DNA of 64,000 nucleotides, taken from Onchidella celtica (Eukaryota; Mollusca; Gastropoda; Systellommatophora; Onchidiidae). Made by a program: the position numbers and the translations under genes. Positions 7,599 to 59,100 of this stretch are shown piece by piece. The stretch spans positions 42,642,521-42,706,520 of the forward strand of contig OZ007569.1 of NCBI GenBank assembly GCA_963931925.1, written 5' to 3'. The notes under the pieces were generated by a model, which was not told the DNA's origin, searched no databases, and saw only the letters and a program-made list of their open reading frames with translations. How positions within the stretch are numbered: the first letter of the stretch is position 1; the number at the start of each line of letters is the position of its first letter.

Positions 7599-7943
7599 CA
7601 AAAATGATAATAATAATAATATCGAATTTAAGAAAAGATGGGACAAGATAAGACACCTTCACTTTATTGTCCCATGAGGGATTTTTTTTTTTTTTTACTT
7701 AGCGATTAAGAGCACATACGTGGTACATACATTACATGCATTATTACCTGACTATATTGTTATATCGCAATATATCACAAAAATGGTAAATCCCATAAAA
7801 ATTCAGGATATTTATTTATTTATTTATTTACTGGGTATTTCTTCAATTTCTGGAACCAAACACTAGCAGATGGTGTGTTAAGAACGTAGGTGATGGTACT
7901 CGGTGGGTTGGTGATTTGTTATGAAAAGAGGCAAATATCAGAT
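7599..7943. other. Short intergenic stretch with LINE-tail-like sequence and TTTA repeat
   Basis: At 7640-7690 the minus strand carries an ACAATAAAGT...TTATCTT arrangement that looks like another LINE or SINE 3' tail, followed on plus by a T-run. A TTTA microsatellite lies at 7808-7831. The last five bases, CAGAT (7939-7943), are one copy of the outer retrotransposon's target-site duplication. Confidence 0.5.
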
Positions 7944-9165
7944 TGTCACAAATCCCAGACTGGGAGATGTAATAAGTATGACAGGACAACAATCACAAAC
8001 AACAAGTTTAACACTTAACAAAACAACCCATCAGACTCACACATTTATTAAACATAATTGTACATATACTAGCGCAATTACATATATTATATTATTGAAA
8101 TGACTGCCGTACAACGGCCTTATTCTCACACACACGCTCCCTCGGATCCACAATCCGGTAGTTACTCCTAAAGGCACTTCGGCCTCAGCCTCTCCCCTCA
8201 GGGTCTTAATAGTACATTAATGATTCACTGGCACCGCAGTCTCTCAATACCACCTTCCTATTGTCATACACCTTAGCACTCCCCTAGCACCTCCGCAGGG
8301 CAATAACACATTAGTATTTCCATAGCCATCAACATGGCAACAACATAGTATCAGTTCACTAGCCTATCAACATGGCAACAACATAGTATCAGTTCACTAG
8401 CCTATCAACATGGCAACAACATAGTATCTCATTCACTCTCATATCTACGTCCCTGTCCGTGGCCTGACTGCCACGACTTTATGTGCCTCCACTGTCCTAC
8501 ACTGACAGCCTCACTTCTGGCCTATGTGTGGCCTCCGGCCCTATGCTGGCCTATCCCCTGTGCTCATCGAGGTGGCTCTGCGGCCCGTCCCCGACACCTA
8601 CAAGAATAACATTACATTGGTATAATACCCTACCATTTCTATTCACTCCACCTCTCCTTACAGTCCATGACGCAGACACACACTAGTTCACCTTTCACTC
8701 ACCACACATCTTACGGTAACACACTTCCATCGGAGTACACACTACTCACTCGCGCTACAAATCCATGAACTCACTTTCATCTATCGCTCATGGGGCACAT
8801 TGCTATATCCAATATCAAGGACTTCCACATTCCTCACATATACTTATTCACATCATGGTAATAGACGAATATAATATAATACATCAATCATAATAATCAA
8901 TCAACGTTCTACATACCAGTCATAACTGGAAAGACTTTCTCCTAGTCTTCTCGACTGCTCCCTTTATGTCTGCCCGATGGGCTATTATTCACAGATCCGC
9001 TCCCTAGGACCTTCTAACTTGCAGTGATAGTTATACAGCGCTTTCGCCTCCTTCAGACCCCCCACTCATGACATGCACGACTTTTCTTCCCTGTCTCCGT
9101 GCGTTAATTTTACTCTCCTCCTTTCCCCCCGTAATTATTAACTATCGCTCACTCCACTCGTGACA
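7944..9165 (-). repeat. 3' LTR of outer element (long form)
   Basis: 1222 bp, TG...CA termini on the minus strand. It contains three copies of a 36-bp tandem unit (about 8330-8435) and, at 8598-8916, a 319-bp segment that begins GTATGT and ends TTGTAG on the minus strand and is absent from the inner element's LTRs. A polyadenylation signal AATAAA lies about 105 bp before the LTR end, near 8050. Adjacent bases 9166-9181 are the polypurine tract. Confidence 0.93.
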
Positions 9166-9515
9166 TCATCCCCCACCCCAAAAAAATTAATGCAATTAAT
9201 TTCAAATCGCATCAAGATGACTGTCAACGAGTGAGCCTGAGCAATACCTACATTAAAAAAAACTGACCTAGCCGTTCCCCTAGTATATAAAATACCGAAA
9301 TCAGGGGAAAATATGGGGATCAATATGGCCTGCATATATGTGTCACATCATGAATAGCTAACTAATCACAATACTTAATACAGAATCAAAAACCATTCAA
9401 CCTATCAACCATTCTTCATATCATATTTATAATGTCAATATTTTAAAGTCGACTCATTCACACAGATCCTGTCAATGTTCCTGTCCTCTGATGTATAAGC
9501 TCCTGAAATCTTCCC

Positions 9516-10433
9516 CTAGGCTCGACTAAGGTAGTCGGCGATATGATTGCTGGTTCCTGGAATTGGTTGAATAACGAAGGTGTACGGCTGTAAAGCCAAT
9601 GCCCATCTAGACAAGCGTGGGCTGGACGAACGATTCTTCGACAAAAATGTCAGTGGCTTGTGGTCTGTCTGGATACAAAATTCTCGTCCCATGAGATAAC
9701 GTCCTAGTTTCTGGACGGACCAGACAATGGCAAGACACTCACGCTCTATCACAGAATACTTTCTTTCTCTCTGCAATAACTTCCCACTGACATAACATAC
9801 AGGATGGAGACATTCGTTCTTCTCCTGTAGAAGACAAGCGCCGACACCAGAGTCCGACGCATCCGTTCTGAGGATAAAATTAGATCGAAAATCGGGTAAT
9901 ATCAGAATGGGTGACGATGATAATGCTGTCACCAAATTATCAAATGATGTCTGACATTCAGACGTCCACTGGACCTTATCGGGTTGTCCCTTCTTAGTAA
10001 GGTCAGTAAGAGAAGATGACAAGGAGGAAAAATTTGGAATGAACTTTCTGTAATAATTTAAAATTCCCACTAAGCTTCTGACTTGTTTCTTTGTTTTAGG
10101 GATTTGCAACCCTACTAACTTGTCAATTTTTGTTTCTTCAGGTCTCTGAACACCTCTACCCACAATATGTCCTAAGAATACTATCTCTGGACATGCCAAC
10201 TCCATCTTTGCGGGTTTAGCAGTTAACCCAAAATGACGTAATCGTTTAAAAATTACTGTTAGTGTCTGAATATGATCAGACCATGTCGACGTATGGCATG
10301 CTATATCATCAAAGAATGACACGGCATTAGGTATGTCCTTCAACACTAATCTCACCAATCGTGCAAACGTCGCTGGCGCGTTTACCAACCCAAATGGCAT
10401 GACCTTAAATTGGAATAATCCAATGGGCGTTTG
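9516..10433 (-). mobile_element. Outer element: 3' part of pol (RT end and RNase H)
   Basis: The minus-strand reading shows the second half of a gypsy-type reverse transcriptase, from PIGLFQFKVMPFGL through the SFFDD catalytic motif and FLGHIVG. The thumb follows, then an RNase H with TDASDSGVG and QTDHKPL, ending HIADYLSRA near 9516. The upstream rest of pol lies beyond the inner insertion, from 17595 on. About 350 bp of non-coding 3' sequence separates it from the polypurine tract. Confidence 0.9.
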
Positions 10434-11300
10434 TGTCACGAGTGGAGTGAGCGATAGTTAATAATTACGGGGGGAAAGGAGGAGAGTAAAATTAACGCAC
10501 GGAGACAGGGAAGAAAAGTCGTGCATGTCATGAGTGGGGGGTCTGAAGGAGGCGAAAGCGCTGTATAACTATCACTGCAAGTTAGAAGGTCCTAGGGAGC
10601 GGATCTGTGAATAATAGCCCATCGGGCAGAGATAAAAGGAAGCAGTCGAGAAGACTAGTGAGAGTCTTTCCAGTTATGACTGGTGTCGGGGACGGGCCGC
10701 AGAGCCACCTCGATGAGCACAGGGGATAGGCCAGCATAGGGCCGGAGGCCACACATAGGCCAGAAGTGAGGCTGTCAGTGCAGGACAGTAGAGGCACATA
10801 AAGTCGTGGCAGTCAGGCCACGGACAGGGACGTAGATATGAGAGTGAATGAGAGACTATATTGTTGCCATGTTGATAGGCTAGTGAACTGATACTATGTT
10901 GTTGCCATGTTGATGGCTATGGAATTAATAATGTGTTATTGCCCTGCTGAGGTGCTAGGGGAGTGCTAAGGTGTATGACAATAGGAAGGTGATACTGAGA
11001 GACTGCGGTGCCAGTGAATCATTAATGTACTATTAAGACCCTGAGGGGAGAGGCTGAGGCCGAAGTGCCTTTAGGAGTAACTACCGGATTGTGGATCCGA
11101 GGGAGCGTGTGTGTGAGAATAAGGCCGTTGTACGGCAGTCATTTCAATAATATAATGTATGTAATTGCGCTATTACATGTGTAATTATGTTTAATAAATG
11201 TGTGAGTCTGATGGATTGTTTTGTTAAGTGTTAAACTTGTTTGTTCGTGATTGTCGTCCTGTCATAAACTATTACATCTCCCAGTCTGGGATTTGTGACA
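10434..11300 (+). repeat. 5' LTR of inner element (short form)
   Basis: 867 bp, TGTCACG...GTGACA. Compared with the 1222-bp form it lacks exactly the 319-bp GT...AG segment and one 36-bp tandem unit (319 + 36 = 355, the whole length difference). A TATA-like TATAACTA lies near 10564 and AATAAA near 11192. Confidence 0.93.
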
Positions 11301-11301
11301 T

Positions 11302-11338
11302 TGGGGGCTCGTCCGTTGTGACATTGGGGGCTCGTCCA
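11302..11338 (+). promoter_or_regulatory. Tandemly duplicated primer-binding site, tRNA-Pro type
   Basis: TGGGGGCTCGTCCG occurs at 11302-11315 and again at 11325-11338 (second copy with one change at its end), in two 23-bp repeats directly after the 5' LTR. The 14 bases complement the 3' end of animal tRNA-Pro, the primer also used by murine leukaemia virus. The outer element has the same duplication. Confidence 0.85.
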
Positions 11339-12247
11339 TTGTGACTCGTCCATTTTCGTAATATTTAGTTGTAGTTAGTTAGTAGGTAATTGTGCTGTCT
11401 TGTTCGTTGGATGAATGGACATTTCATGATAGGATTTATGTATAATAATGAATGTATATTGATGCATGTATTGCTATGAATAGGTATTAATGTGTATTTA
11501 AACTTTCCAGAGTGTGTGCGTGCAGCCTGAGGAGACAAGCGGCCAGAGCTCCGATTAAGGGGAGGAGTTAAACTCAAAATTCGAAGTTAAGTGAAAGTCA
11601 AAATTTTTGTGCCCTGGATTGTGGGCTGTTCCTTTAATCTGTCTTTTTCCCTGTTTTGCTGTTGTTGTCGTTATAGGTTATACGGGCGGTGGCGCGGGTT
11701 TGCTGTGTTGAACTTAGTTTATCCTTTTAAAAAGGTGTGGTAAACTTTGGAACTTCGTTCATCACAGTGAACAGTTCTGTAGGGACCTGTAATATTGTTT
11801 AGTTGTAGCGTCGATATCTTCTCTGTTCCGCAGGAAGACGTATTCTCTTGTCCCTCTTTCTACCTATCTATAGATACGTTCTTTTTTTTCAGACTCTGTT
11901 CTTGTTCGTACCTTGTAGTGTAATCGGCGTAGTTAGGTTGCATTTTTTTCCATTATATTTTCCTTTTTAGGTCGTTGTCCTAGTCTGGTTCGTTGTCCTT
12001 GACGTACTTGTGGTCCTTCTACTGTATTTCTTCATTCTTGTCGTTTCTATTTTCTTTTATAATTAATAGTGCATACATTTTATAGATATAGAATTAGTTT
12101 TGCTGTAAAGGTAAATTTCTGAATTGTATTCTGAATTGGGTATTGTTATATCTGGTGTGATCTCAGGTCTCTGGTCGTGTTGCTAGTGATCATACCGACA
12201 GGGTAGCCGTTTTCATAGTATACATACCATAACCATAAATCTGTGAA
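11339..12247 (+). other. Leader region of inner element
   Basis: Untranslated leader between the primer-binding sites and the gag-like start. It is T-rich, with no sustained reading frame. The matching leader of the outer element lies at about 20880-21825 on the minus strand. Confidence 0.7.
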
Positions 12248-14100
12248 ATGGCGGAACTCCAACAACTAATGAAGTTGGGTAAGGAACTTGGCCTGGAGGG
12301 AGAGGAGCTACGCGGCTGGATTAAAGAACAGCAGGCGGATTTGCGCGATGAGCGTGCTAAGGATAGAGAGCGAGAAAAAGAGGCTCAAGACCGACAGAGA
12401 GAAGAGGAGAGAGAGTTTAAGTTAAAGGAGTTAGAGGCTCAGCAACAGGAAAGGGAGTTAAAGTTAAAGGAGATAGAAGCTCAAGAGCGGGAGACAGACG
12501 CGCGAGTAAGAATCGCGGAATTAGAACTCAAAAAGAATGCGCCAACAGAAACAGTTGAGCGGCAGGTACACAATAAAGGTGGCGTTAGGATTAAGCTCCC
12601 TACGTTCGACGACCGGAAGGACGACATAGACGCCTTCCTTTACAGGTTCGAACTGAACGCACAATTGCAATGGGGGGAAAATAAGGAATTATGGGCCACG
12701 TACCTGGCGTCTCTATTGCAGGGGCGAGCGTTAACCTACTTTAAAGAGCTACAGCGCGAAGACGTGCAAGACTACGATAAGCTGAAGGCTTTGCTGCTTC
12801 GCCGATTTGCGCGTACCGAGGAATATTTCCGGGAGCAGTTTAGGCGAGCACGTGCAGACACCAGGGAGGACTTTGCTGCCTTCGTCGCGAGACTAACTGA
12901 GTATTTCGCGAACTGGGTAGACTTGGCGCATGTGGGCACGGATTTCGCTAAACTGAAAGACCTAATGATCCGTGACCAGCTGTACGCGTCGTGCCACAAA
13001 GATCTGGTGGCTTTCCTGAAAGAGAACGAACCCGCGACGGTGCAGGAGGCGTCTAAGTTGGCGGAGGCATACCGTACGGCGCATCCGTCCAAACCAGTCG
13101 CCAGGGCGTACGTCCAAGATACTGGGTACGTCGCCGTTGTCGAGGGGTCGCCGGCAGGCCTTGGGGACAGGTCGCGTCAGCGTGGTGCCTATTGCGGGCA
13201 AGCCCAGGGGCAGCGTAGGGGCTATCACCAATCACCGGCATATGGATCCGGTAAGTTTGACCGAGCAGGAGGGCTAGGTCGCGGTAATGGCCGGGGGCGA
13301 ATTGTGACCTTTGCCGATGACCGACGGCATAGGGACTCTAGTTCCGGTCGCGATGGGTCACGGGGACCCAGGCCTAGGGCAGCACAGGGAGCGGAGTGTT
13401 GGACTTGCGGACGCGTGGGTCACTTTTCGCGCGAGTGTAGGGCCGCGAAGTGTTGGAACTGCGGAAGAGCAGATCACATCAGCGTGAACTGCCCGGCAGG
13501 TAGGATAGCGGCGAACGTGGACAGTAGCTCCAGTCCATGTTCCCCAAATAAATTTCACCATGCGGCTGCGTGTGTTACATCGGACAACGGAGGCGGACAG
13601 TATTCTAAGTGTCCCAGTTGTGAGAAGTTATTATCTTCCGGTGTTTTACCTTGCGGGAGAAAGATCCCCGTTATAAATTCATGTCATACAGGAGGTGGTC
13701 TTAGGGTTTATCCGGGGTTTGTTGGGGACGAACCGGTCTCGGTTTTACGAGATACAGGATCTACCGTTGTGGGAGTGCATAGGGACTGCATTCGGGATTC
13801 ACAGCTTACAGGTGAGACTGTCCCGTGCATCCAATTTTCGGGGGCCATTGAGAAGTTACCCATGGCAAGAATAGTGATAGATACACCTTTCCTTAGCGGG
13901 GAAGTCGAAGCAGTCGTTGGTTGTTTTCCAGGCGCCCAGCTCATCATTGGGAATGTATCACGGGTAGTTTCCCCTTCCGATGAGAACGTGCAAGCATGGT
14001 CGCAATCAAAAGGTATTGACTTTTGCGCCGCGGTCGAAACACGCCGACGGGTAGCCGATAAAGATAAGATTAGACCTTTGGCTACGCCAGCGGTCAACCT
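12248..14100 (+). mobile_element. Inner element: gag-like and protease region
   Basis: Starts at ATG 12248 with MAELQQLMKLGKELGLEG. A highly charged Glu/Arg/Lys coiled-coil stretch follows (about residues 30-100), then a capsid-like helical region related to retrotransposon gag domains (IDAFLYRFE...YFKELQ...), then a Gly/Arg-rich linker and CCHC zinc knuckles of the CWNCG...H...C type (about residues 380-420). An aspartic protease-like segment with the catalytic-type RDTGSTVVG sits near residue 500. Expected role: virion-like particle formation, RNA binding and processing. Confidence 0.88.
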
Positions 14101-16376
14101 AGATATCACGCCAGAGCGCTTGGCGAAATTACAAAGGGAGGACCCGTCATTAAACCCATGTTTTGGGGAAGCGCGAACCGAGAAAACGAGGAGATATAAG
14201 AACGGGTCGTCCTCTTTTTTTGTTCAGGCGGGCATTCTGTTCCGTATGTACGTCACAGTGGCTTCCGTTCAAAAGCAGGTCGTCGTGCCGCGGTCGTTAA
14301 TTGCTACAGTATTGCGTCTGGCCCATGATGTCCCATTAGCGGGTCATATGGGAAGTACTAAAACCAAGCAGAGAGTTCTGAAAGATTTTTATTGGCCGTC
14401 AGTATACAGAGATGTACGTTTATATTGTAAGACGTGCAGTGCGTGCCAAAAGACGACGCATAAGGGTCGTTCACCCCAGGCTCCTCGTCAAAAGATCCCC
14501 ACGGTTTCGGAACCGTTTAAAAAGGTTTCAGTACCTTGTTGATTTAAGAGAAAGACTATCTTCAGCGCGCACTATAGCAGAAAAAGCGTCTAGTATCGCT
14601 TCGAAAAGAGCAAAAGACTATAAAGATAGAGGTTCCAAACTGAGAATTTTTGAGCCAGGAGACAAGGTTCTGTTGTTGTTACCTACGGACCATAATAAGT
14701 TATTGATGACATGGAAAGGTCCTTATGTTATTGAGCGAGTTGTTTCAAAGGTAGATTACGCTATCCACATTGATGGAGCGAGTAAGGTTTTCCATGTTAA
14801 TATGCTACAGAGATTTTATGAGAGACCACAGTATCTGTGTGCACAGACAAGACCAGAGGAGACTGTCTTCTCTATTGCTTGTACGGGGGTCGTAGACCAG
14901 TTGGACTGTGACGTAAGCGACACCGAGGCGCAGGAGGAGTTACAAATTCAATTGCCGGAGTTAACTCCGACACAAGGTTACAGGGACGTAAAAATTAACC
15001 CTGACCTTACAAGTTCAAGGCGTAGGGAACTTGAGACCCTGTTAGCGTCATTTCCGGATGTTGTTACGGATTTGCCGGGTCGCACTACGGTGATCCAGCA
15101 CCAAATAAAGTTGACTTCGGATAAGCCGGTATTTCTTAGACCTTGTCCGCTGCCGTTTTCTTCGAGAGATAGAGTCATAAAGGAAGTGGAGTCAATGTTG
15201 AAGTTAGATGTGATAGAACCATCAACATCGCCGTATTCATCACCCATCGTCCTCGTGAAAAAACTTGATGGATCGGTGCGGTTCTGTATTGATTTTCGAA
15301 GATTGAACACTATTACGGTAGGCGATAGGGAGCCTATTCCGTTTCAGGAGGAACTAATAGCTTCATTGGCCGGGTCCACGTGGTTTTCCAAGATAGATTT
15401 GACGAAAGGGTATTGGGAAATCCCGCTTACTGAGGAGTCTAAAAAATACACGGCGTTCCAAACGCCCATTGGATTATTCCAATTTAAGGTCATGCCATTT
15501 GGGTTGGTAAACGCGCCAGCGACGTTTGCACGATTAATGAGATTAGTGTTGAAGGACATACCTAATGTCGTGTCATTCTTTGACGATATAGCATGCCATA
15601 CGTCGACATGGTCTGATCATATTCAGACACTAACAGTAATTTTTCAACGATTACGTCATTTTGGGTTAACTGCTAAACCCGCAAAGATGGATTTGGCATG
15701 CCCAGAGATAGTATTCTTAGGACATATTGTGGGTAGAGGTGTTCAGAGACCTGAAGAAACAAAAATTGACAAGTTAGTAGGGTTGCAAATCCCTAAAACA
15801 AAGAAACAAGTCAGAAGCTTAGTGGGAATTTTAAATTATTACAGAAAGTTCATTCCAAATTTTTCCTCCTTGTCATCTTCTCTTACTGACCTTACTAAGA
15901 AGGGACAACCCGATAAGGTCCAGTGGACGTCTGAATGTCAGACAGCATTTGATAATTTGGTGACAGCACTATCATCGTCACCCATTCTGATATTACCCGA
16001 TTTTCGATCTAATTTTATCCTCAGAACGGATGCGTCGGACTCTGGTGTCGGCGCTTGTCTTCTACAGGAGAAGAACGAATGTCTCCATCCTGTATGTTAT
16101 GTCAGTGGGAAGTTATTGCAGAGAGAAAGAAAGTATTCTGTGATAGAGCGTGAGTGTCTTGCCATTGTCTGGTCCGTCCAGAAACTAGGACGTTATCTCA
16201 TGGGACGAGAATTTTGTATCCAGACAGACCACAAGCCACTGACATTTTTGTCGAAGAATCGTTCGTCCAGCCCACGCTTGTCTAGATGGGCATTGGCTTT
16301 GCAGCCGTATACCTTCGTTATTCAACCAATTCCAGGAACCAGCAATCATATCGCCGACTACCTTAGTCGAGCCTAG
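14100..16376 (+). mobile_element. Inner element: pol region (integrase-type segments, RT, RNase H)
   Basis: First comes an integrase zinc-binding segment (H...H...CKTCSACQ, about 14.3-14.45 kb), then an integrase C-terminal GPY-type segment (WKGPYVIERV, about 14.7 kb). Reverse transcriptase follows: VRFCIDFRRLN, KIDLTKGYW, FGLVNAPATF and SFFDD. RNase H (TDASDSGVG...QTDHKPL) ends near 16376 with YLSRA. Integrase ahead of RT is copia-like order in a gypsy-type RT and is the hallmark of the Gmr1 group. Confidence 0.88.
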
Positions 16377-16722
16377 GGGAAGATTTCAGGAGCTTATACA
16401 TCAGAGGACAGGAACATTGACAGGATCTGTGTGAATGAGTCGACTTTAAAATATTGACATTATAAATATGATATGAAGAATGGTTGATAGGTTGAATGGT
16501 TTTTGATTCTGTATTAAGTATTGTGATTAGTTAGCTATTCATGATGTGACACATATATGCAGGCCATATTGATCCCCATGTTTTCCCCTGATTTCGGTAT
16601 TCTATATACTAGGGGAACTGGTAGGTCATTTTTAATGTAGGTATTGCTCAGGCTCACTCGTTGACAGTCATCTTGATGCGATTTGAAATTAATTGCATTA
16701 ATTTTTTTGGGGTGGGGGATGA

Positions 16723-17589
16723 TGTCACGAGTGGAGTGAGCGATAGTTAATAATTACGGGGGGAAAGGAGGAGAGTAAAATTAACGCACGGAGACAGGGA
16801 AGAAAAGTCGTGCATGTCATGAGTGGGGGGTCTGAAGGAGGCGAAAGCGCTGTATAACTATCACTGCAAGTTAGAAGGTCCTAGGGAGCGGATCTGTGAA
16901 TAATAGCCCATCGGGCAGAGATAAAAGGAAGCAGTCGAGAAGACTAGTGAGAGTCTTTCCAGTTATGACTGGTGTCGGGGACGGGCCGCAGAGCCACCTC
17001 GATGAGCACAGGGGATAGGCCAGCATAGGGCCGGAGGCCACACATAGGCCAGAAGTGAGGCTGTCAGTGCAGGACAGTAGAGGCACATAAAGTCGTGGCA
17101 GTCAGGCCACGGACAGGGACGTAGATATGAGAGTGAATGAGAGACTATATTGTTGCCATGTTGATAGGCTAGTGAACTGATACTATGTTGTTGCCATGTT
17201 GATGGCTATGGAATTAATAATGTGTTATTGCCCTGCTGAGGTGCTAGGGGAGTGCTAAGGTGTATGACAATAGGAAGGTGATACTGAGAGACTGCGGTGC
17301 CAGTGAATCATTAATGTACTATTAAGACCCTGAGGGGAGAGGCTGAGGCCGAAGTGCCTTTAGGAGTAACTACCGGATTGTGGATCCGAGGGAGCGTGTG
17401 TGTGAGAATAAGGCCGTTGTACGGCAGTCATTTCAATAATATAATGTATGTAATTGCGCTATTACATGTGTAATTATGTTTAATAAATGTGTGAGTCTGA
17501 TGGATTGTTTTGTTAAGTGTTAAACTTGTTTGTTCGTGATTGTCGTCCTGTCATAAACTATTACATCTCCCAGTCTGGGATTTGTGACA
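16723..17589 (+). repeat. 3' LTR of inner element (short form)
   Basis: 867 bp and, by eye, identical to the 5' LTR at 10434-11300. Preceded by the polypurine tract GGGGTGGGGGATGA. It ends TTTGTGACA and is followed by target duplication GTTTG. Confidence 0.93.
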
Positions 17590-17594
17590 GTTTG

Positions 17595-20500
17595 AAACGC
17601 CGTGTATTGTTTAGACTCCTCAGTAAGCGGGATTTCCCAATACCCTTTCGTCAAATCTATCTTGGAAAACCACGTGGACCCGGCCAATGAAGCTATTAAT
17701 TCCTCCTGGAGCGGAATAGGCTCCCTATTGCCTACCGTAATAGTGTTCAATCTTCGAAAATCAATACAGAACCGCACCGATCCATCAAGTTTTTTCACGA
17801 GGACGATGGGTGATGAATACGGCGATGTTGATGGTTCTATCACATCTAACTTCAACATTGACTCCACTTCCTTTATGACTCTATCTCTCGAAGAAAAGGG
17901 CAACGGATACGGTTTAAGAAATACTGGCTTATCCGAAGTCAACTTTATTTGGTGCTGGATCACCGTAGTGCGACCCGGCAAATCCGTAACAACATCCGGA
18001 AATGACGCTAACAGGGTCTCAAGTTCCCTACTCCTTGAACTCGTAAGGTCAGGGTTAATTTTTACGTCCCTGTAACCTTGTGTCGCAGTTAACTCCGGCA
18101 ATTGAATTTGTAACTCTTCCTGCGCCTCGGTGTCGCTTACGTCACAGTCCAACTGGTCTACGACCCCCGTACAGCCGTAGAGAAGACAGTCTCCTTTGGT
18201 CTTGTCTGTGCACACAGATACTGTGGTCTCTCATAAAATCTCTGTAGCATATTAACATGGAAAACCTTACTCGCTCCATCAATGTGGATAGCGTAATCTA
18301 CCTTTGAAACAACTCGCTCAATAACATAAGGACCTTTCCATGTCATCAATAACTTATTATGGTCCGTAGGTAACAACAACAGAACCTTGTCTCCTGGCTT
18401 AAAAATTCTCAGTTTGGAACCTCTATCTTTATAGTCTTTTGCTCTTTTCGAAGCGATACCAGACGCTTCTTCCGCTATAGTGCGCGCTGAAGATAGTCTT
18501 TCTCTTAAATCAACAAGGTACTGAAACCTTTTTAAACGGTTCCGAAACCGTGGGGATCTTTTGAAGAGGAGCCTGGGGTGTACGACCCTTATGCGTCGTC
18601 TTTTGGCACGCACTGCACGTCTTACAATATAAACGTACATCTCTGTATGCTGACGGCCAATAAAAATCTTTCAGAACTCTCTGCTTGGTTCTAGCACTTC
18701 CCATATGACCCGCTAGTGGAACATCATGGGCCAGACGCAATACTGTAGCAACTAACGACCGTGGCACGACGACCTGCTTTTGAACAGAAGCCACTGTGAC
18801 GTACATACGGAACAGAATGCCCCCCTGAACAAAAAAAGAAGATGACCCGTTCTTATATCTCCTCGTTTTCTCGGTTCGCGCTTCCCCAAAACATGGGTTT
18901 AATGATGGGTCCTCCCTTTGTAATCTCGCCAAGCGCTCCGGCGTGATGTCTAGGTTGACCGCTGGCGTAGCCAAAGGTCTAATCTTGTCTTTATCGGCTA
19001 ACCGTCGGCGTGTTTCGACCGCGGCGCAAAAGTCAATACCTTTTGATTGCGACCATGCCTGCACGTTCTCATCGGAAGGGGAAACTACCCGTGATACATT
19101 CCCAATGATGAGCTGGGCGCCTGGAAAACAACCAACGACTGCTTCGACTTCCCCGCTAAGGAAAGGTGTATCTATCATTATTTTTGCCATGGGTAATTTC
19201 TCAATGGCCCCCGAAAATTGGATGCACGGGACAGTCTCACCTGTAAGCTGTGAATCCCGAATGCAGTCCCTATGCACTCCCACAACGGTAGATCCTGTAT
19301 CTCGTAAAACCGAGACCGGTTCGTCCCCAACAAACCCCGGATAAACCCTAAGACCACCTCCTGTATGACATGAATTTATAACGGGGATCTTTCTCCCACA
19401 AGGTAAAACACCGGAAGATAATAACTTCTCGCAACTGGGACACTTAGAATACTGTCCGCCTCCGTTGTCCGATGTAACACACGCAGCCGCATGATGAAAT
19501 TTATTTGGGGAACATGGACTGGAGCTACTGTCCACGTTCGCCGCTATCCTACCTGCAGGGCAGTTCACGCTGATGTGATCTGCTCTTCCGCAGTTCCAAC
19601 ACTTCGCTCCCTGTGCTGCTCTAGGCCTGGGTCCCCGTGACCCCTCGCGACCGGAACTAGAGTCCCTATGCCGTCGGTCATCGGCAAAGGTCACAAGTCG
19701 GCCCCGGCCATTACCGCGACCTAGCCCTCCTGCTCGGTCAAACTTACCGGATCCATATGCCGGTGATTGGTGATAGCCCCTACGCTGCCCCTGGGCTTGC
19801 CCGCTATAGGCACCACGCTGACGCGACCTGTCCCTAAGTCCTGCCGGCGACCCCTCGACAACGGCGACGTAGCCAGCATCTTGGACGTACGCCCTGGCGA
19901 CTGGTTTGGACGGATGCGCCGTACGGTATGCCTCCGCCAACTCAGACGCCTCCTGCACCGTCGCGGGTTCGTTCTCTTTCAGGAAAGCCACCAGATCCTT
20001 GTGGCACGACGCGTACAGCTGGTCACGGATCATTAGGTCTTTCAGTTTAGCGAAATCCGTGCCCACATGCGCCAAGTCTACCCAGTTCGCGAAATACTCC
20101 GTTAGTCTCGCGACGAAGGCAGCAAAGTCCTCCCTGGTATCTGCGCGTGCTCGCCTAAACTGCTCCCGGAAATATTCCTCGGTACGCGCAAATCGGCGAA
20201 GCAGCAAAGCCTTCAGCTTATCGTAATCTTGCACGTCTTCGCGCTGTAGCTCTTTAAAGTAGGTTAACGCTCGCCCCTGCAATAGCGACGCCAGGTACGT
20301 GGCCCATAATTCCTTATTTTCCCCCCATTGCAATTGTGCGTTCAGCTCGAACCTGTAAAGGAAGGCGTCTATGTCGTCCTTCCGGTCGTCGAACGTAGGG
20401 AGCTTAATCCTAACGCCAGCTTTATTGTGTACCTGCCGCTCAACTGTTTCTGTTGGCGCATTCTTTTTGATTTCCAACTCGGCGATCTTTACTTGCGCCT

Positions 20501-20879
20501 CTATCTCCTTTAATTTTAATTCCCTCTCCTGAGCCTGTTTCTCCTGTTGCTGATGCAACTCCTTTAACTTAAACTCCCTTTCCTGTTGCTGAGCCTCTAA
20601 CTCCTTCAACTTAAACTCTCTTTCCTCTTCCTGAGCCTTAGCCTCTCTTTCCTGTTGCTTAAACTCCCTTTCCTGTTCCTTATCCTTAGCCTCTCTTTCC
20701 TGTTGCTTAAACTCCCTTTCCTCTTCTCTCTGTCGCTCTTGAGCCTCTTTTTCTCGCTCTCTATCCCTAGCACGCTCATCGCGCAAATCCGCCTGCTGTT
20801 CTTTAATCCAGCCGCGTAGCTCCTCTCCCTCCAGGCCAAGTTCCTTACCCAACTTCATTAGTTGTTGGAGTTCCGCCAT
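17595..20879 (-). mobile_element. Outer element: gag, protease and 5' part of pol
   Basis: Minus-strand equivalents of the inner coding parts. The gag-like start is ATG at 20879 with a longer coiled-coil repeat (extra EREFKQQEREAK units), then capsid-like region, zinc knuckle, protease-like RDTGSTVVG, integrase-type segments and the first part of RT (KIDLTKGYW near 17640). The protein level is very close to the inner copy, so the two share a recent source. The main visible difference is the number of coiled-coil repeat units. Confidence 0.88.
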
Positions 20880-21825
20880 TTCACAGATTTATGGTTATGG
20901 TATCTATTATAAGACGATCAACCTGTCGGTATGATCACTAACGATACGACCAGAGACCTGAGATCACACCAGATATAACCAGGCCTACTTGTATCAAATA
21001 CAATTCAGAAATTTACCTTTACAGCACAACTAATTCTATATTCACAAAATGCACTGCACTATTAATAATAAAAAGGAGTAGAAAAGACAAGAATAAGGAA
21101 ATTCAGTAGAAAGACCACAAGTACGTCAAGGACAACGAACCAGACTAGGACAAAGCTTCTACAAAAAAACTATACTGGAAAAAAAAATGCAATCTACTAC
21201 GCCGATTACACAACACGGTACGAACAAGAACAGAGTCTGAAAAAAAAGAACGTATCTACAGAAAGGTAGAAGAGGGACAAGAGAAACGTCTTCCTAAAAC
21301 AACGAGGAAGATGGAACGGCACAATCTAAACACAAATACAGGTCCCTACAGAACTGTTCACTGTGATGAACGAAGTTCCAAAGTTTACCACACCTTTTTA
21401 AAAGGATAAACTAAGTTCAACACAGCAAACCCGCGCCACCGCCCGTATAACCTATAACGACAACAAAAACAGCAAAAACAGGGAAAAAGACAAATTAAAG
21501 GAACAGCCCACAATCCAGGGCACAAAACTTCAGCTTCACTTAACTTTTGAAATTTTGAGTAAAACTTCTCCCTTCAATCGGAGCTCTGGCTGCTCGTCTC
21601 CTCAGGCTGCACGCACACACACTGTCTCTCTGAAAGTTTAAGTACACATTAGTACATATTTATAGCAATACATGCATCAATACATATTTATAAACATATA
21701 TAAATCATATCATCATGACATTTCCATTCATCCCACGAACAAAGACAACAGCACAAATTCCTAGCACAACAGAAAAACAACTAGACACAACGAATGCACA
21801 ATGTCAAAATGACCACAGGCAAACA

Positions 21826-21861
21826 GGACGAGCCCCCAGTGTCACAACGGACGAGCCCCCA
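21826..21861 (-). promoter_or_regulatory. Duplicated tRNA-Pro-type primer-binding site of outer element
   Basis: Reverse complement of TGGGGGCTCGTCCG at 21848-21861 and a near-copy at 21826-21838, directly inside the 5' LTR. The same tandem arrangement as in the inner element shows that the duplication is a family trait. Confidence 0.82.
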
Positions 21862-21862
21862 G

Positions 21863-23084
21863 TGTCACAAATCCCAGACTGGGAGATGTAATAAGTATGA
21901 CAGGACAACAATCACAAACAACAAGTTTAACACTTAGCAAAACAACCCATCAGACTCACACATTTATTAAACATAATTGTACATATACTAGCGCAATTAC
22001 ATATATTATATTATTGAAATGACTGCCGTACAACGGCCTTATTCTCACACACACGCTCCCTCGGATCCACAATCCGGTAGTTACTCCTAAAGGCACTTCG
22101 GCCTCAGCCTCTCCCCTCAGGGTCTTAATAGTACATTAATGATTCACTGGCACCGCAGTCTCTCAATACCACCTTCCTATTGTCATACACCTTAGCACTC
22201 CCCTAGCACCTCCGCAGGGCAATAACACATTAGTATTTCCATAGCCATCAACATGGCAACAACATAGTATCAGTTCACTAGCCTATCAACATGGCAACAA
22301 CATAGTATCAGTTCACTAGCCTATCAACATGGCAACAACATAGTATCTCATTCACTCTCATATCTACGTCCCTGTCCGTGGCCTGACTGCCACGACTTTA
22401 TGTGCCTCCACTGTCCTACACTGACAGCCTCACTTCTGGCCTATGTGTGGCCTCCGGCCCTATGCTGGCCTATCCCCTGTGCTCATCGAGGTGGCTCTGC
22501 GGCCCGTCCCCGACACCTACAAGAATAACATTACATTGGTATAATACCCTACCATTTCTATTCACTCCACCTCTCCTTACAGTCCATGACGCAGACACAC
22601 ACTAGTTCACCTTTCACTCACCACACATCTTACGGTAACACACTTCCATCGGAGTACACACTACTCACTCGGGCTACAAATCCATGAACTCACTTTCATC
22701 TATCGCTCATGGCGCACATTGCTATATCCAATATCAAGGACTTCCACATTCCTCACATATACTTATTCACATCATGGTAATAGACGAATATAATATAATA
22801 CATCAATCATAATAATCAATCAACGTTCTACATACCAGTCATAACTGGAAAGACTTTCTCCTAGTCTTCTCGACTGCTCCCTTTATGTCTGCCCGATGGG
22901 CTATTATTCACAGATCCGCTCCCTAGGACCTTCTAACTTGCAGTGATAGTTATACAGCGCTTTCGCCTCCTTCAGACCCCCCACTCATGACATGCACGAC
23001 TTTTCTTCCCTGTCTCCGTGCGTTAATTTTACTCTCCTCCTTTCCCCCCGTAATTATTAACTATCGCTCACTCCACTCGTGACA
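21863..23084 (-). repeat. 5' LTR of outer element (long form)
   Basis: 1222 bp, about three differences from the partner LTR at 7944-9165. It contains the 319-bp GT...AG segment (22517-22835 by offset) and three 36-bp units. Target duplication CAGAT follows at 23085-23089. Confidence 0.93.
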
Positions 23085-32424: not shown

Positions 32425-35400
32425 TATTGCCAGCATAAGTCTGATAAATCTGCCACACAAGTCTGACCAGAAAGATGCACAAGTCCAACCAGCTGGCCAA
32501 AAAATAACGACGTCTTACGCACAAGTCTGACAAGTTGGCCAAAAAATCTGACAAGTCTGACGCACAAGTCCAACAAGTTGGCCAAAAAAATTCAAACAAG
32601 TCCGATGCACAAATCGAACATGTTGGCCAAAATAAGTCTGACAAGTCCGACGCACAAGTCCAACTAGTTGTTTGGAAATTCCAACAAGTCTGTTGCACAC
32701 GTCCAACAAGGTAGCCGGATAAATTCCGACAAGTCTGATGCATCAGTTCGACAAGTTACCCAGAAATCTGGTAAGTCTGAAGCACAAGTCCAACAAGTTG
32801 GTTTAAAAATTGTGACAAATTTCTTGCACAAATAAAACAGGTCTGAAAAATCCGACATTTTCGACGTGAAAGTCCAAAAGTTCGCCCAAAAAGGTTTACA
32901 AATGTGACGCTCAAATCCGACAATTTAGCAGAAAAAGTCTGACAATTCTGATGTACAAGACAAAATGTGCGGAAGTCCAACAACTATCGCAAAAAAATAC
33001 GACAAGTCCGAAGCCCAATTCCGAGAACTTGGCCAAAAATTTTTGAAAAGTCTAACGCAAAATTCTGAGATAGAAAAAATATAATTTTGACAAGTCTGAT
33101 GCACAAGTCCGACGTTTGCCAAAAAATCCAAAACAATCCGATGTGGAAGTATAACAGGTTGGGTTGAGAAATTACGACAAGTCTGACACACAAGTCCGAC
33201 GATGTGACCAAAAAATCCGATAACTCCCACTCAGAAGTCTAACATGTTGACTGAAAAATTCTGGCAAAGTCCGACAAGTGGACCAAAAATTCTGGTGAAG
33301 CAGTCAGACAATTCGGCTAAAAATTCTGACAAGTCTGATGCACAAATCGAACAGGTTGCCCGCAAATTCTGACAAGTCCAACGTGAAAGTCCAACAAGTT
33401 GGTCGAAAAGTTACTATAAGTCTGATGCACAAGTTCAACAAGTTGGCTGAAAAAAGTCTGACAAGTCTGACGTGTAAGTCCAACAAGTTTGCCGAAACGA
33501 TACGACAGGGCTGATGCTCAAGTTTGATTAGTTGGCCAAAAAATCTGACAAGTCTGACAAGTTGGCCGAAAAATTACGATAGGTCTGATGCACAAAGTCC
33601 GACGAGTTGGCCAAAAAATCTGACAAGAATGACGCACAAGTGCGACAAGTTGGCCAAAAAATCTGACAAGTCTGTCGCACAAGTCCAACAAGTTGGCCAA
33701 AAAATTACGATAAGTCTGATGCACAAGTCCAACGAGTTGGCCAAAAAATCTGACAAGAATGACGCACAAGTGCGACAAGCTGGCCAAAAAATCTGACAAG
33801 TCTGTCGCACAAGTCCAACAAGTTGGCCGAAAAACTGTGACAGGGCTGATGCACAAGTTTGATAAGTTGGCCAAAAAATGTGAAGAGTCTGACGCACGAG
33901 CCCGAAAAGTTGGCCCAAAAATCCGATAAGTCTTATGCACAAATCCAACAATTTGGCTGAAAAATTCTGACTAGTCTGACGCAGAAGCCCGAAAACATGG
34001 CCCAAAAATCTGATGAGTCTGACGCACAAGTGAGAAACTTTGGCCGAAAAATCTAATAAGTCCAAGTTTGGCCGAAAAATTATGACAAATCTGTTGAACA
34101 AATAAAACAAGTTGGCCGAAAAATCTAATAAATCTAACAGTTTGGCCGAAAAGTTATGACAAATCTGTTCAACAAATAAAACAAGTTGGCCGAAAAATAC
34201 AACAAGTTCTACGTGCAAATCCAACAAGTTTGCCCAAAAATTTTGACAAATCTTACAAGTTTTCTGAAAAATTCCAAAAAGTCTGACGCATAAGTCCAAG
34301 AAGTTGACCGAAAAATCCAACAGGTTGGACAAAAATATCTGACAAAACTGAAGCACAAGTCTGAGAAGTTGGCCAAAACATTTTGAAAAGTGTAACGCAA
34401 AATTCCAAGATGGAAAAAAAAATAATTTCGACAAATCTGAAGCACAAGTCTGACAACTTGGCCCAAAAATCCGAAAAGTCAGACGCACAAGTCCAAAAAG
34501 TTGGTCAAAACGTTCTGACAAGTAAAACATGTTTTACGACAAGACTGGCGCACAAGTCCAACGAGTTGGTTGAAAAATCTGATAAGTCTGCCACACAAGT
34601 CAAACTAGTTGGCTGAAAAATTGTGACAAATCTGTTGCCAAAATAAAACAAATTGTCAGAAAAATCCGGCAATTCCGACGTGAAAGTCCAACAATTTGGC
34701 ACTAATGTGACTCTCAAATCCAATAAGTTACTTGCAAAAAAGATTCTGACAAATGTGACTCTCAAATCCGATAAATTACTTTCGAAGTCTGATGCACAAA
34801 TTTGATAACTTGGCCAAAAAATCTGACAAAACTGATGCACAAGTCCGAGAAGTTGGCGAAAAAAATCCAAAAAATCTGACTCACAAGTCCAACAAGTAGG
34901 TCGAAAAATTCTGGCAAGTCTGATGCACAAGTCCAAAAACTTGGCAAATAAATCCGATAACTCTGACGCACAAGTGAAACATATTGGCCAAAAAAGTCTC
35001 ATAATCCTGATGCACAAGTCCTATAAGTTGGCCGAAAAATCTAACCAGTCTGATAGGTTGGCCGAAAAATTATGACCAATCTGTTGCACAAATAAAACAA
35101 GTTGGCCGAAAAATCCGACAAGTTTGTCGTGCAAGTCCAAGAAATGGGACAAAATTTTTTGACAAATCTGACGCACAAGTCTTACAAGTTTTCCAAAAAA
35201 TTCCAAAAATTCTGACGCACAAGTCTAAGAAGTTGACCGAAAAATCCAACAAGTCCAACATGCAAATAATTTGGCCAAAATGTTACAACAAGTCTTACAC
35301 ACAAGTCCGACGAGTTGGCCAAAAAATCTGTCAAGTCCAATGCACAAGCCCGAGAAGTTGGCAAAAAAAATCCTATAAGTATGACTCACAATTCTAACAA

Positions 35401-36500
35401 GTTGGTAGAAAAATTCTGACAAGTCTGACGCATAAGTCGGACGAACTAAGCAAAAATCTGACAAAGATGTCTGACAGGTTGGATGAAAATCCCAACAAGT
35501 TTGATGCATAAGTCCAAGAGGTTGGCAGAAAAAAATCTGACAAGTCTGACTTACGAGTCCAAAAAGTTGGTCAAAAAATTTTGAGAAGTCTGATGCACAA
35601 GTCTAACAAGTTAGCCGGAAAAATTTCGACAAGTCTGATGTACAAGTCCGACAAGTTTTCCCAAAATTGAGATAAGTCTGACGCACAATTCTAAAAAGTT
35701 CGTCGAAAGTTCTGTCAAGTAAAACGTGCAAGTCCAAAAAATTGGACAAAATGTTATGACAAGTCTGACGCACAAGTCCGACAAGTTGGACAAAAAATCT
35801 GACAAGACTGACGCACAAGTTCAACAAGTTGGTTAAAAAATCTGATAAGTCTGCCGCATAAGTCCAACAAGTTGGCTGAAAAATTGCGACGAATCGCTTC
35901 CACACATAAAATAAATTGTCAGAAAAATCCCACAATTCCGACTTAAAGTCAAAAAAGTTTGCCAAAGTCTGAAGCAGAATTCCAAGAACTTGGCCGAAAA
36001 AATCCAACAAGTCCGATGTGGAAGTACAAGTTGGCCGAAAATTTATAGCAAATCTGACGCACAAGTTCGACGAGTTGGCCAAAAAATCCAATAAGTCTCA
36101 CACAGAAGTCCAACATGTTGGCTAAAAAATTCTGGTAAGTCCAAAGCACAACTCCGATGAGTTGACCAAAAAATCTGGTGAACAAATCTGACAATTTGGC
36201 CAAAAATTCCAACGTCTGATACACAAATTGAACAAGGTGGCCAAAAAATCGGACAAGTCCGACTTACAAATCCAACAAGTTGGTCAAAAAATTTTGTCAC
36301 ATCTAATGTACATGTCCAACAGGTTGGTTGAAAAAAATTGAGAAGTCTGACGCACAATGTCCGATAAGTTGGCTGGAAAATTGTGACAAGCCCGACGCAT
36401 AAGCCCGACAAGTTCGCTGAAAAATTCCAAGTACGATGTCCAAGTCCAACAAGTTGGCCGAAAATTACAACAAGTCTGACAAGTTGGCCAAAAAAGTCTG
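32425..36500. repeat. 43-bp satellite array
   Basis: About 4 kb of head-to-tail, diverged units with a period near 43 bp. In the most regular part (33.6-33.85 kb) each unit carries the blocks CAAGTTGGCCAAAAAATCTG, ACAAGTCTGACGCACAAGTC and CA. The consensus has no stop codon in any frame of the minus strand. Since 43 is 1 modulo 3, the frame rotates every unit, so long Leu/Phe/Cys/Trp-rich open frames run through the array (up to 318 codons at 33574-34530). I treat these as repeat-derived, not as genes. Confidence 0.93.
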
Positions 36501-37515
36501 ACAAGTCCGATGCACAAGTCTAACAAGTTAGCCAAAAGACTCAGACGAGTCCGATGTACAAGACCAACATGTTGGTTGAAAAATCTGACAAGTCCAACAA
36601 GTTCGACAAAGCCGCACAGGTGCGACAAATCCAACAAGTCATCCTGCACAAATCTGCCGTCCAGGTTTGACAATTCCGCTGGACAAATCTGACAAGTTCA
36701 CTGCACTAGCCTGACAAGTCCAATAAGTGTGCCGAATAAGTTCGTCCAGTCCGATAAGTGAGACAAATCTAACAAGTCATCCGCACAAAATCCACAACTT
36801 TGACATGTCTGACATTCCAGCTGCACAATTGTGACAAATCTGACAAATCCACTGCACAATCACAACAAAGTTTGCCAAACAAGTCCGCCAAGTTCAACAT
36901 ATCTGATAAGTCCACCACAGACATCTGATAAGTCCGTCAAATCTGCACAACAAATCAAACAGGTCTGCAGCATAAGTATGACCAGCCAGGGGCACAAGTC
37001 TGATGAGGCTGTCTAGTCTGCCGCACAAGTCTGACAAGTCCCCAGAACAAGTCAGACAAGTTTGCCGCAGAAGTTCGACAAGTCCAAGAAGTCTGCCGCA
37101 CAGGTTCGACAAGTACGACAAGTTTACCGCACAAGCTGGACAAGTTTGCCGCACAAGCCAAACAATCCCAGGGCACAAGTCTGACAAGATCAACAAAAAG
37201 TAAAAAAAAATCTGATAATTTTAGCAATCCTGACATGTTCAACAAGTCCGCTGTACAGGTTCAACAAATCCGAAAAATCCACAGCTCAGGTTGGACAAAT
37301 CCAACAAGTCTGCTGCTCAGATTCGACAGGTCTGACAAATCTGACAAACCCAACAAATCAGCCGCACAAATCCAACAAGTCTGAGGCAGAAGTCCAACAA
37401 ATTTGACAAGTCCGACAATCCAAAAAATCTGTCACACAAGTCCAACAAGTTTGCCGGGCAAGTCCGACAACACCAATAAAGCCAACAAGTCCGTTGTACA
37501 ACAAATCTGACAAGT
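36501..37515. repeat. Variant satellite block
   Basis: The array continues with a shorter, different sub-motif (TCTGCCGCACAAGTC, GACAAGTCC) and without the GGCCAAAAAA block of the main unit. The period is irregular, roughly 25-36 bp. It probably reflects a second expansion from the same precursor. Confidence 0.8.
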
Positions 37516-56100: not shown

Positions 56101-59100
56101 ATGCATCCATGTCAGAAACTGATTCTGTCATGAATCCGCAGGTTGTGTGGTATAGTGCTTTTTTCGAATATGCATGAAATCCACATATTCAGTTTAAGTC
56201 TGATATATCATAAAAACCACAGAAAAACTGTGGGGTCGCAGCAGGGCCATAAGCAAATCAAAATTGGGCAAAAAGAAAAGGTTGTATGTTGCGAAACCCC
56301 ACGTGAGAAATAAAACCCAAACAATACAAAGCAAACTAAAGAGTGTCACGAGTGGAGTGAGCGAGATTCAAGGATTACGGGGGCATGGAAGTGAGGGATT
56401 GACTCACGGGATAGTGAGGCTGTTCACCTATATTGACTTCTGTTAGTTAACGTTAAAGCGTGAAATGTTGTGAGTTGGGGGGTCGGCATGAGGCGAGAGC
56501 GCTGTACTGACAATCACTGCAAGTTAAGGAGTCCCAGGGGACAGACGTGAGATCAGAGGCAGTCGGGAGATTGTTGTGTGTTTTCCAGTGATGACTGGTA
56601 GGTTGAACTGTGATTTATAATTATGATGATTGATGTATTATATTCGCCTATGACCATGATGTAAATAAGTATATGTGAGGAATGTGGAAGTCAGTGATTA
56701 CTGTGTATAGAAATGTGCGCCATGAGCGATAGATGTAAGTTAGGTTCATGGATTCGTAGCGAGAGTGAGTGCTGTGTGGTACGGTGGAGGTGTGTTACCG
56801 TAAGATGTGTGGTGAGTGAAAGGTGGACTATTGTGTGTACGCTTCATGGTTTGTAATGAGGGGTGAAGTGGTTAGAAATGGTATGGTATTATACCAATGT
56901 AATGTTCTTCTTGTAGGTGCCGGGGTCGGGCAGAGACGCCACCCGCGGTAAGCGAACTAGCACAGGGGATAGGCCAGCATAGGGCCGAAGGCTACGCATA
57001 GGCCAGCGGAGTGAAGCTGTCGAGCAGAACAGGAGGGGCGTATGAGTCGTGGCAGTCTGGCCACAGACAGGGATGTGTATATAATTGTTAATGTGCTCTT
57101 AAGATGTACTACATGTGATCGTGATATACGACTGTGCTATTGTGATATTAATGTGAATTGAACTATTAACGTGCTATTGCCATGTGAGGAGCTCTTGGAA
57201 TGCTCAGGTGTTATTGCCATAGGGAGGTGCTATTGAGAGACTGCGGTGCGAAAGAAATACTGTGTTATTAAGACATCGAGTGGAGATGCTGAAGCCGAAG
57301 TGTCTTTAAAAGTAACTACCGGGTTGTGGACCCGAGGGAGAGTGCTTGAGGGAAGAAGGCCGTTGGACGGCAGTTGAATAGAGTAATATACTGTATGTCA
57401 TTGCACTGTTATCTTTATCTTTATGTTTAATAAATGTGTGAGTCTGATGGGTTGTTCTGTTAAGTGTTATACGTGTTCGTTCGTGATTGTTGTCTTGTTA
57501 TAATTTATTACATCTCCCAGTCTGGGATTTGTGACAAAGAGAAGACGCTTCGTTCCTGTTGAAGTCTTTTATTGTTCGATTTTTTTTCACTTGAAAAAGG
57601 CGAAAGCCGAAAATTTTGTGTATTTTCTGTCTTCTCTTTAGTTTGCTTTGTATTGTTTGGGTTTTATTTCTCATGCGGGGTTTCGCAACATACAACCTTT
57701 TCTTTTTGCCCAATTTTGACTTTAAGTATGATCTGTTTTCTTGATAGTTGGCAATTGCATTCCACACATTTAGAGGTATCTTCCCCCCTGAGTGAAAGTT
57801 TTGATTAGAATGTTTGTTCTTTTTGTGCTTTTACTGCTTTTTAGGCTAAGCTGTTTTACATACTAATATGCTGTACAATGACGTCCTCTTTTGTTTCCAT
57901 CAAAAGGCAACTCTGTGAAATTTCAGAGTTGTGCCAGAGACCATCGATATAACGCCAAAGCGATATAATAAGCATTTGTGAGCGAGTCCCACTAACCTCA
58001 ACGGAAGTCGCGCTGGACCAAACGGAGAAAATTGCGACGAAACACAAATATCTGATTTTTTGGCGATTTTTATATTTTGGTTGATACTTAAATTTCAACC
58101 ATTTTTCTACATTCTGTGAAAATATTATGTCTCACATCAGCCTCTATATATGATAAATATTGCCTTTAATGCCTTTAATTATGCCTTTGACATCGAATAT
58201 CACAGCAATAATGGGGTTCATTGAACTCCTGATATCTTGAAAATGCATAAGTCTATTGTCACAAAATTTTCACATAGCGTGTATCATTTATATTGGCATA
58301 GAGACAAGCAAAATTTCAAAGCTGTAGATTAATTACTAGTGCCCCATGCTAAGAAGATAGAAAGGTACCCATCTCGCCGAAAACGAAAATTGCTCCTCCA
58401 TCTTTAATGGCGATTTTCTCAGAAGTTGCTTCCGTTTTTTACCAGGGGGTAGGTGTCTTTAAAAAGCCATAACTTTGCAATAAAAAGGAGTATTGCAATC
58501 ATTTTTACACCAAATTAAAGATGAGATTCCATACGTTATGGTGATATTCATAACTCAAAACTGAAAAATACGTCTTCCGTTGAGGTTAGTGAGGCTAGCT
58601 CACATTTAAGATACACCACTAGCACCAGTATGACAAAATCTGTTCCAGTTGCAAATCAGTGCAAGCTGTTACATAATATTACGATATTACTTTATGGTCA
58701 CCACAGTAAAACATCCTGTGCAATGCATGCAAGACAAAAAAAAAATAATGATAAAGTATATATATGTCAAAGTTTGGTTTTACAGGGCACCTGCTCAACT
58801 GTGACAAATGTTTAGACAGTTATGCTGACAGGGTGTAATCAAGCACCAATATAACTTCAATTAATATAAGGTATAGAAAAAAGTTCAAGTGTATAAACAT
58901 GACCTTGAACAATTCAGCAACATGAATAATTATGCACTGTTTGTACACTGATTGTTTCATGAACAGAATCTTAACACCTGAATGTTTATGTCTCATCAGC
59001 CTTCATATAGCTAATTATACCAAAACCAATTGAACCATACTCTTCCCGTATCCCCTTACATACATACCTATAATAAAAAAAACATCATTTGGACCATAAC

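Follow-up and report, generated by a model that had tools for sequence, protein, structure and literature searches.

The window analysed here, a stretch of 64,000 nucleotides from the Onchidella celtica genome (contig OZ007569.1), contains two nested LTR retrotransposons of the same family in opposite orientation, together with a solo LTR of an older subfamily (Table 1). Their target-site duplications (CAGAT, GTTTG and AAGAG for the outer element, the inner element and the solo LTR) mark three separate insertions. Both elements have the features of LTR retrotransposons, including 5-bp target-site duplications, identical or near-identical LTR pairs, and primer-binding-site-like and purine-rich sequences adjoining the LTRs. 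The LTRs of the inner element are identical to each other over 867 bp, and those of the outer element differ at 3 positions across 1222 bp. The primer-binding site is present in tandem duplicate, 23 bp apart (TTGGGGGCTCGTCC or CTGGGGGCTCGTCC; window 11301-11345 and 21818-21862), and presumably resembles a tRNA-Pro primer site. Elsewhere in the window, positions 33288-36600 hold a long stretch of degenerate repeats with spacings of ~43 and ~130 bp.

Table 1. Elements, LTRs and intron-like segments in the window (window coordinates; TSD, target-site duplication).
Feature	Position	Strand	Details
Outer element	7944-23084	sense on minus strand	TSD CAGAT
Inner element	10434-17589	plus	TSD GTTTG
Long-form 3′ LTR, outer element	7944..9165	-	1222 bp
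Long-form 5′ LTR, outer element	21863..23084	-	1222 bp
Short-form 5′ LTR, inner element	10434..11300	+	867 bp; junction between 10682 and 10683
Short-form 3′ LTR, inner element	16723..17589	+	867 bp; junction between 16971 and 16972
Solo LTR, older subfamily, long form	56344..57536	+	1193 bp; TSD AAGAG
Intron-like segment, outer 3′ LTR	8598..8916	-	319 bp, GTATGT...TTCTTGTAG on sense strand
Intron-like segment, outer 5′ LTR	22517..22835	-	319 bp; 2 differences vs 8598..8916 segment
Intron-like segment, older-subfamily solo LTR	56598..56916	+	319 bp, GTAGGT...TTCTTGTAG; 85% identical to young one
AATAAA poly(A) signal, long LTR	9044..9049	-	downstream of intron
AATAAA poly(A) signal, short LTR	11193..11198	+	
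Inner-element coding region	12239..16376	+	gag-like part, zinc knuckle, integrase H2C2, then RT, RNase H

The integrase H2C2 motif lies in the first open reading frame of the coding region and reverse transcriptase (RT) and RNase H in the second, placing integrase upstream of RT, an order described as a trait of the Gmr1 clade in the accessible text of two earlier studies (PMC6238403, PMC8220671). The initial annotation had called the family Gmr1-like, a label that this domain order supports. A domain search found no rve domain in the open reading frames of either window element, and compared with a relative (L106) both are missing ~0.5 kb of the integrase catalytic core (inner ~14525-14541, outer ~18511-18527). 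The deletion is common to the two window elements, which are probably mobilised in trans. When the gap was considered as a possible second splice event, no GT..AG placement was visible by eye, L106 being only 83% identical upstream of the gap. No relatives were confirmed in IMG/VR. Protein searches gave named relatives among molluscs (Ylistrum, Littorina, Pinctada) and in a hemichordate, in line with a molluscan host, and a non-LTR RT search returned no informative name.

All three long LTRs of the window carry a segment of exactly 319 bp that starts with GTATGT or GTAGGT and ends with TTCTTGTAG, as the initial annotation had described and direct reading confirms. The description of the inner element was equally accurate: in both of its LTRs, ATGACTG is joined straight to GTGTCGG and the 319 bp are cleanly absent. 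The 355-bp difference in LTR length had been ascribed to this segment plus one 36-bp tandem unit; the first part of that account holds, and the remaining 36 bp are instead the net result of a 38-bp unit and single-base indels. Tandem-unit number varies within long and short forms alike, and thus the unit is not part of the intron-loss event. The 38-bp units (window 8268-8428) vary in number such that the 3′ flank measures ~579, 617 or 655 bp; among the sampled LTRs, the 617- and 655-bp classes are found in both forms and the ~579 class only in intronless copies.

Judged by its sequence, the segment is a candidate U2-type intron, with GT..AG on the transcribed strand and consensus-like splice sites. 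When GTs and AGs within the LTR were scored with splice matrices, the donor ranked 3rd of 118 and the acceptor 2nd of 109, and GT and AG are present in all 36 long copies read. The polypyrimidine tract (TTATTCTTGTAG) is short; no branch point emerged when the 12-60 nt preceding the acceptor were searched for strict yTnAy.

A survey of both LTR forms, proposed by the initial annotation and carried out across the source genome (1.14 Gb, 43 contigs), found each to be abundant. Allowing up to 3 mismatches, the young intronless junction had 2,035 matches (reversed-pattern control 0) and the young intron donor, marking the long form, had 12,485 (control 3), an intronless share of 14.0% of 14,520 by young patterns, with the 3-mismatch limit letting exact old-type copies into both counts. 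For the junction that the old LTR predicts, 471 matches were obtained with at most 1 mismatch (control 0), and for the old donors 5,372 (control 0), giving an old-type intronless share of 8.1%; an exact match to the old junction differs from the young pattern at 3 positions, and the young and old counts overlap and are not additive. The short form had been taken for one young derivative, a view that does not survive the occurrence of the junction ~2,000 times and in more than one subfamily. On contig C11 (39679198-39706184), five long LTRs are arranged at a regular ~6.67 kb spacing, probably as a tandem array of elements with common LTRs.

Variable or imprecise boundaries, which would have spoken against splicing, were sought by two spacing scans, and only one off-length junction came to light. 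Fixed anchors around the junction gave 0 matches with 20-50 intervening bases and 1 match with 0-18, the exact product having 19; the scans need exact anchors, and these off-length results are bare counts and not a rate. The single exception (L059) carries a further 4-bp loss. Imprecise deletion is ruled out by these exact-anchor scans, and a genome search for the same donor joined to a tandem-unit AG instead had 0 matches at up to 3 mismatches. In the LTRs read, which had been selected for matching the intron or the junction, the gap between the flanks was exactly 0 in 63 (62 exact 24-mer matches, from 62 of 100 listed places, and one window copy) and exactly 319 in 36 (36 of the 40 scored intron matches, themselves from 106 candidates). 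The two remaining were L059 and the diverged old LTR; the automatic gap of 328 obtained for the latter reflects an anchoring effect, and its intron is 319 bp by direct reading.

Reverse transcription makes both LTRs from one RNA template. Absence of the segment from both LTRs had been presented as evidence of splicing, but since both LTRs inherit whatever change the RNA carries, such absence is insufficient alone and points to loss before integration. Consistent with this, 47 same-strand LTR pairs lying 4-9 kb apart (from 124 exact-match LTRs in the first 70 Mb of contig C1) comprised 37 long-long, 10 short-short and no mixed pairs, compared with 15.7 mixed pairs expected under random assignment. 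Both LTRs have thus already lost the segment when the element integrates, as a route through reverse transcription demands. Deletion after integration, which would yield mixed pairs, was rejected on the same count.

The LTR flanks of the older subfamily are only 72-78% identical to young ones, and the segment lies at the identical place with the identical length; the presence of the intron in so diverged an LTR indicates that the intronless state is derived. Among the old-type intronless LTRs read (6 of 471 places), one (L101) is 98.0% identical to the old long LTR over 254 bases of one flank and 96.9% over 584 bases of the other, compared with 66.7% and 78.9% for the young LTR. It also has in common with the old long LTR an 8-bp insert ~35 bp from the junction, which is absent in the other five. 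Over the 762 flank bases of the nearest young long-short pair (L092/L069), 145 of them preceding the junction and 617 following it, there are 2 differences. Phylogenetic trees require form to change 15-19 times, with 3 of these changes (3′ flank) or 7 (both flanks) imposed by well supported branches, and a single clade of intronless LTRs is rejected (AU p 0.0003 for the 3′ flank and 0.004 for both flanks). Form is nevertheless clustered on the trees, with 15 changes vs 28.9 on shuffles and none of 500 shuffles as low, a clustering that is partly due to LTR pairs.

The core idea of the initial annotation, that a spliceable intron is lost via reverse transcription, is strongly supported by these genome-wide tests; its placement of the intron in R and its single young derivative are not. 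We put a probability of roughly 0.86 on the reading that the segment is a spliceosomal intron within the LTR, recurrently lost through reverse transcription of spliced RNA, where both the spliceosome as agent and the spliced RNA as template are what we infer from sequence. The LTR of this Gmr1-like Ty3/gypsy family would hold a 319-bp spliceosomal intron in the sense direction, and part of the genomic RNAs would be spliced and then packaged. Reverse transcription of such an RNA would build both new LTRs from the intronless copy, and a doubly intronless element would integrate, with the loss repeated in at least two subfamilies. The intron would be retained in most packaged RNAs, keeping the long form in the majority; given that majority, most replicating RNAs must presumably be unspliced.

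An alternative is that a single ancient loss, whether through splicing or a chance deletion, was spread across backgrounds and into both subfamilies by template switching between co-packaged RNAs. In its favour, the LTRs are clear mosaics: the distances of the 5′ and 3′ flanks are uncorrelated (Mantel r 0.0) and intron distances only weakly track those of the flanks (Mantel r 0.08 for the 5′ flank and 0.18 for the 3′ flank), and thus the changes counted on trees overstate the number of losses. Several intronless copies are also mutual nearest relatives, and U3 types measuring 292-305 bp were seen in 15 of the 62 intronless copies and in none of the 35 long ones (5′ flank measured, element partners counted twice), a confinement that suggests intronless lineages probably multiply. 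However, form shows almost no coupling to SNPs at a distance of 18-24 bp, a range at which frequency-matched SNPs are still coupled. Within 25 bp, mean r2 between form and SNPs was 0.021 (only 3 pairs) vs 0.377 (51 pairs) between SNPs of minor frequency 0.25 or more, and at 26-60 bp it was 0.027 (only 7 pairs) vs 0.188 (89 pairs); local r2 fell below that of form in 1 of 19 comparison SNPs. Intron state therefore seems, on this sequence comparison, to change more often than recombination reshuffles adjacent bases. One haplotype, at sites -8, -16, -17 and -20, was present in 4 of 30 distinct long rows and in no intronless row, partly because exact junction matches were sampled. Further, the match of L101 to the old long LTR on both sides, insert included, would take two crossovers near the junction, and recombination accounts for the spread of a loss but not for a first exact GT..AG loss. 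We consider a single ancient loss unlikely. The second subfamily, the rejection of one clade and the weak linkage together argue for repeated independent losses.

Ordinary deletion at a short GGT repeat, through end joining or reverse-transcriptase slippage, could in principle have produced a junction that is intron-like by chance, and the short repeat at the ends does let the breakpoint slide across three positions, from only one of which GT..AG can be written. But 424,295 distinct deletions of 50-800 bp are possible in the LTR, of which 4,476 (1.05%) can be written as GT..AG and 6 score as high as the real one or higher (by splice matrices), so that such a match to splice signals is rare by chance. 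A repeat of this length would also hardly account for ~2,000 identical junctions in two subfamilies with one off-length junction found, and if the deletion followed integration it predicts the mixed LTR pairs that are missing from all 47, making this origin very improbable. Similarly hard to credit is a mobile insert, introner-like or a transposon, that was gained by the long form or excises precisely. The segment is more alike between subfamilies than the flanks are, as a mobile insert might be, but its position and length are unchanged in the diverged old LTR, which makes absence of the segment the derived state. Moreover, an Rfam search of window 7900-11400 gave no match and no obvious terminal repeats were visible by eye, while the 40 scored genome matches (from 106 candidates) span the full segment length and the 36 of them that were read all lie at the identical LTR position.

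With a spliceosomal intron as the preferred reading, its position within the LTR depends on the promoter. Of 94 LTRs scanned, 55 have a TATA-like motif ~119 bp upstream of the donor and 91 have a second one 42 bp upstream of AATAAA. Placement in R, as the initial annotation had it, is accordingly not established: a promoter at the second motif would put the intron in U3, from where it would be spliced out of the 3′ UTR. The proposed mechanism of loss works in either position. Compared across subfamilies, the introns show 85.2% identity, 4 gap columns and the same length of exactly 319 bp, against 71.6% and 77.7% identity and 67 and 62 gap columns in the LTR flanks. Conservation is thus higher in the intron than around it, a difference that plain intron drift leaves unexplained; the intron may have a function, or segments of it may have been exchanged between subfamilies. 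We tentatively suggest, at somewhat less than even odds, that the LTR intron is a maintained facultative switch, kept since unspliced RNA is normally packaged or since the intron is regulatory. Each slipped splicing would then write a heritable intronless allele with a different U3 or leader, and the ratio of long to short forms would record how often spliced RNA is reverse transcribed.

Splicing of retroelement RNA normally leaves no genomic trace. If the favoured reading is correct, each intronless LTR is a lasting record of a spliced RNA (or a descendant of one) that was packaged, reverse transcribed and integrated. As one genome contains ~14,500 LTRs, long and short together, the rate at which spliced RNA leaks into replication becomes estimable, and the population allows testing of whether intronless copies are fitter or dead ends. 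It also raises the question of why the intron persists in an element whose own replication by reverse transcription can remove it. Should the intron indeed act as a facultative switch, the genome would contain natural indicators of retrotransposition in large number. LTR annotation also calls for caution, in that the length classes of a family may be splice products and not separate families.

Lentiviruses offer a precedent for an intron in LTR-derived sequence, the R-U5 intron of SIV and HIV-2, for which PMC1766366 cites Viglianti 1992. We know of no large genomic population of intronless LTRs from these viruses. According to the accessible part of one report, the SIV/HIV-2 leader RNA contains a functional intron in the R-U5 region (TAR splicing; PMC1766366), which makes it like the window family in having a spliceosomal intron within LTR-derived sequence, and unlike it in belonging to a lentivirus and not a Ty3/gypsy element. 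The Gmr1 clade of Ty3/gypsy elements has the order of integrase before RT in common with the window family, but LTR introns are not described for it in the accessible text of two studies, where "intron" occurs 0 times (PMC6238403) and once, within a reference title (PMC8220671). Among the matches listed (titles, abstract starts and hit counts), the open-access literature yielded no natural retrotransposon LTR intron with an intronless genomic LTR class. LTR retrotransposons with spliced transcripts include the plant elements Ogre, EVADE and BARE1, which have introns, and Cer1 with its spliced mRNA, where splicing leads to subgenomic RNAs and proteins, as presented in the available portion of a recent account (PMC12786077). 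Unlike these, the window family carries its intron inside the LTR, and many genomic copies lack it in both LTRs. A further parallel is the engineered intron in TyH3 and in later retrotransposition reporters, whose precise loss is given in the same portion of that account as the classical proof of an RNA intermediate (PMC12786077). The TyH3 intron is artificial, whereas the putative intron of the window family is natural and located in the LTR, and precise loss is common to both.
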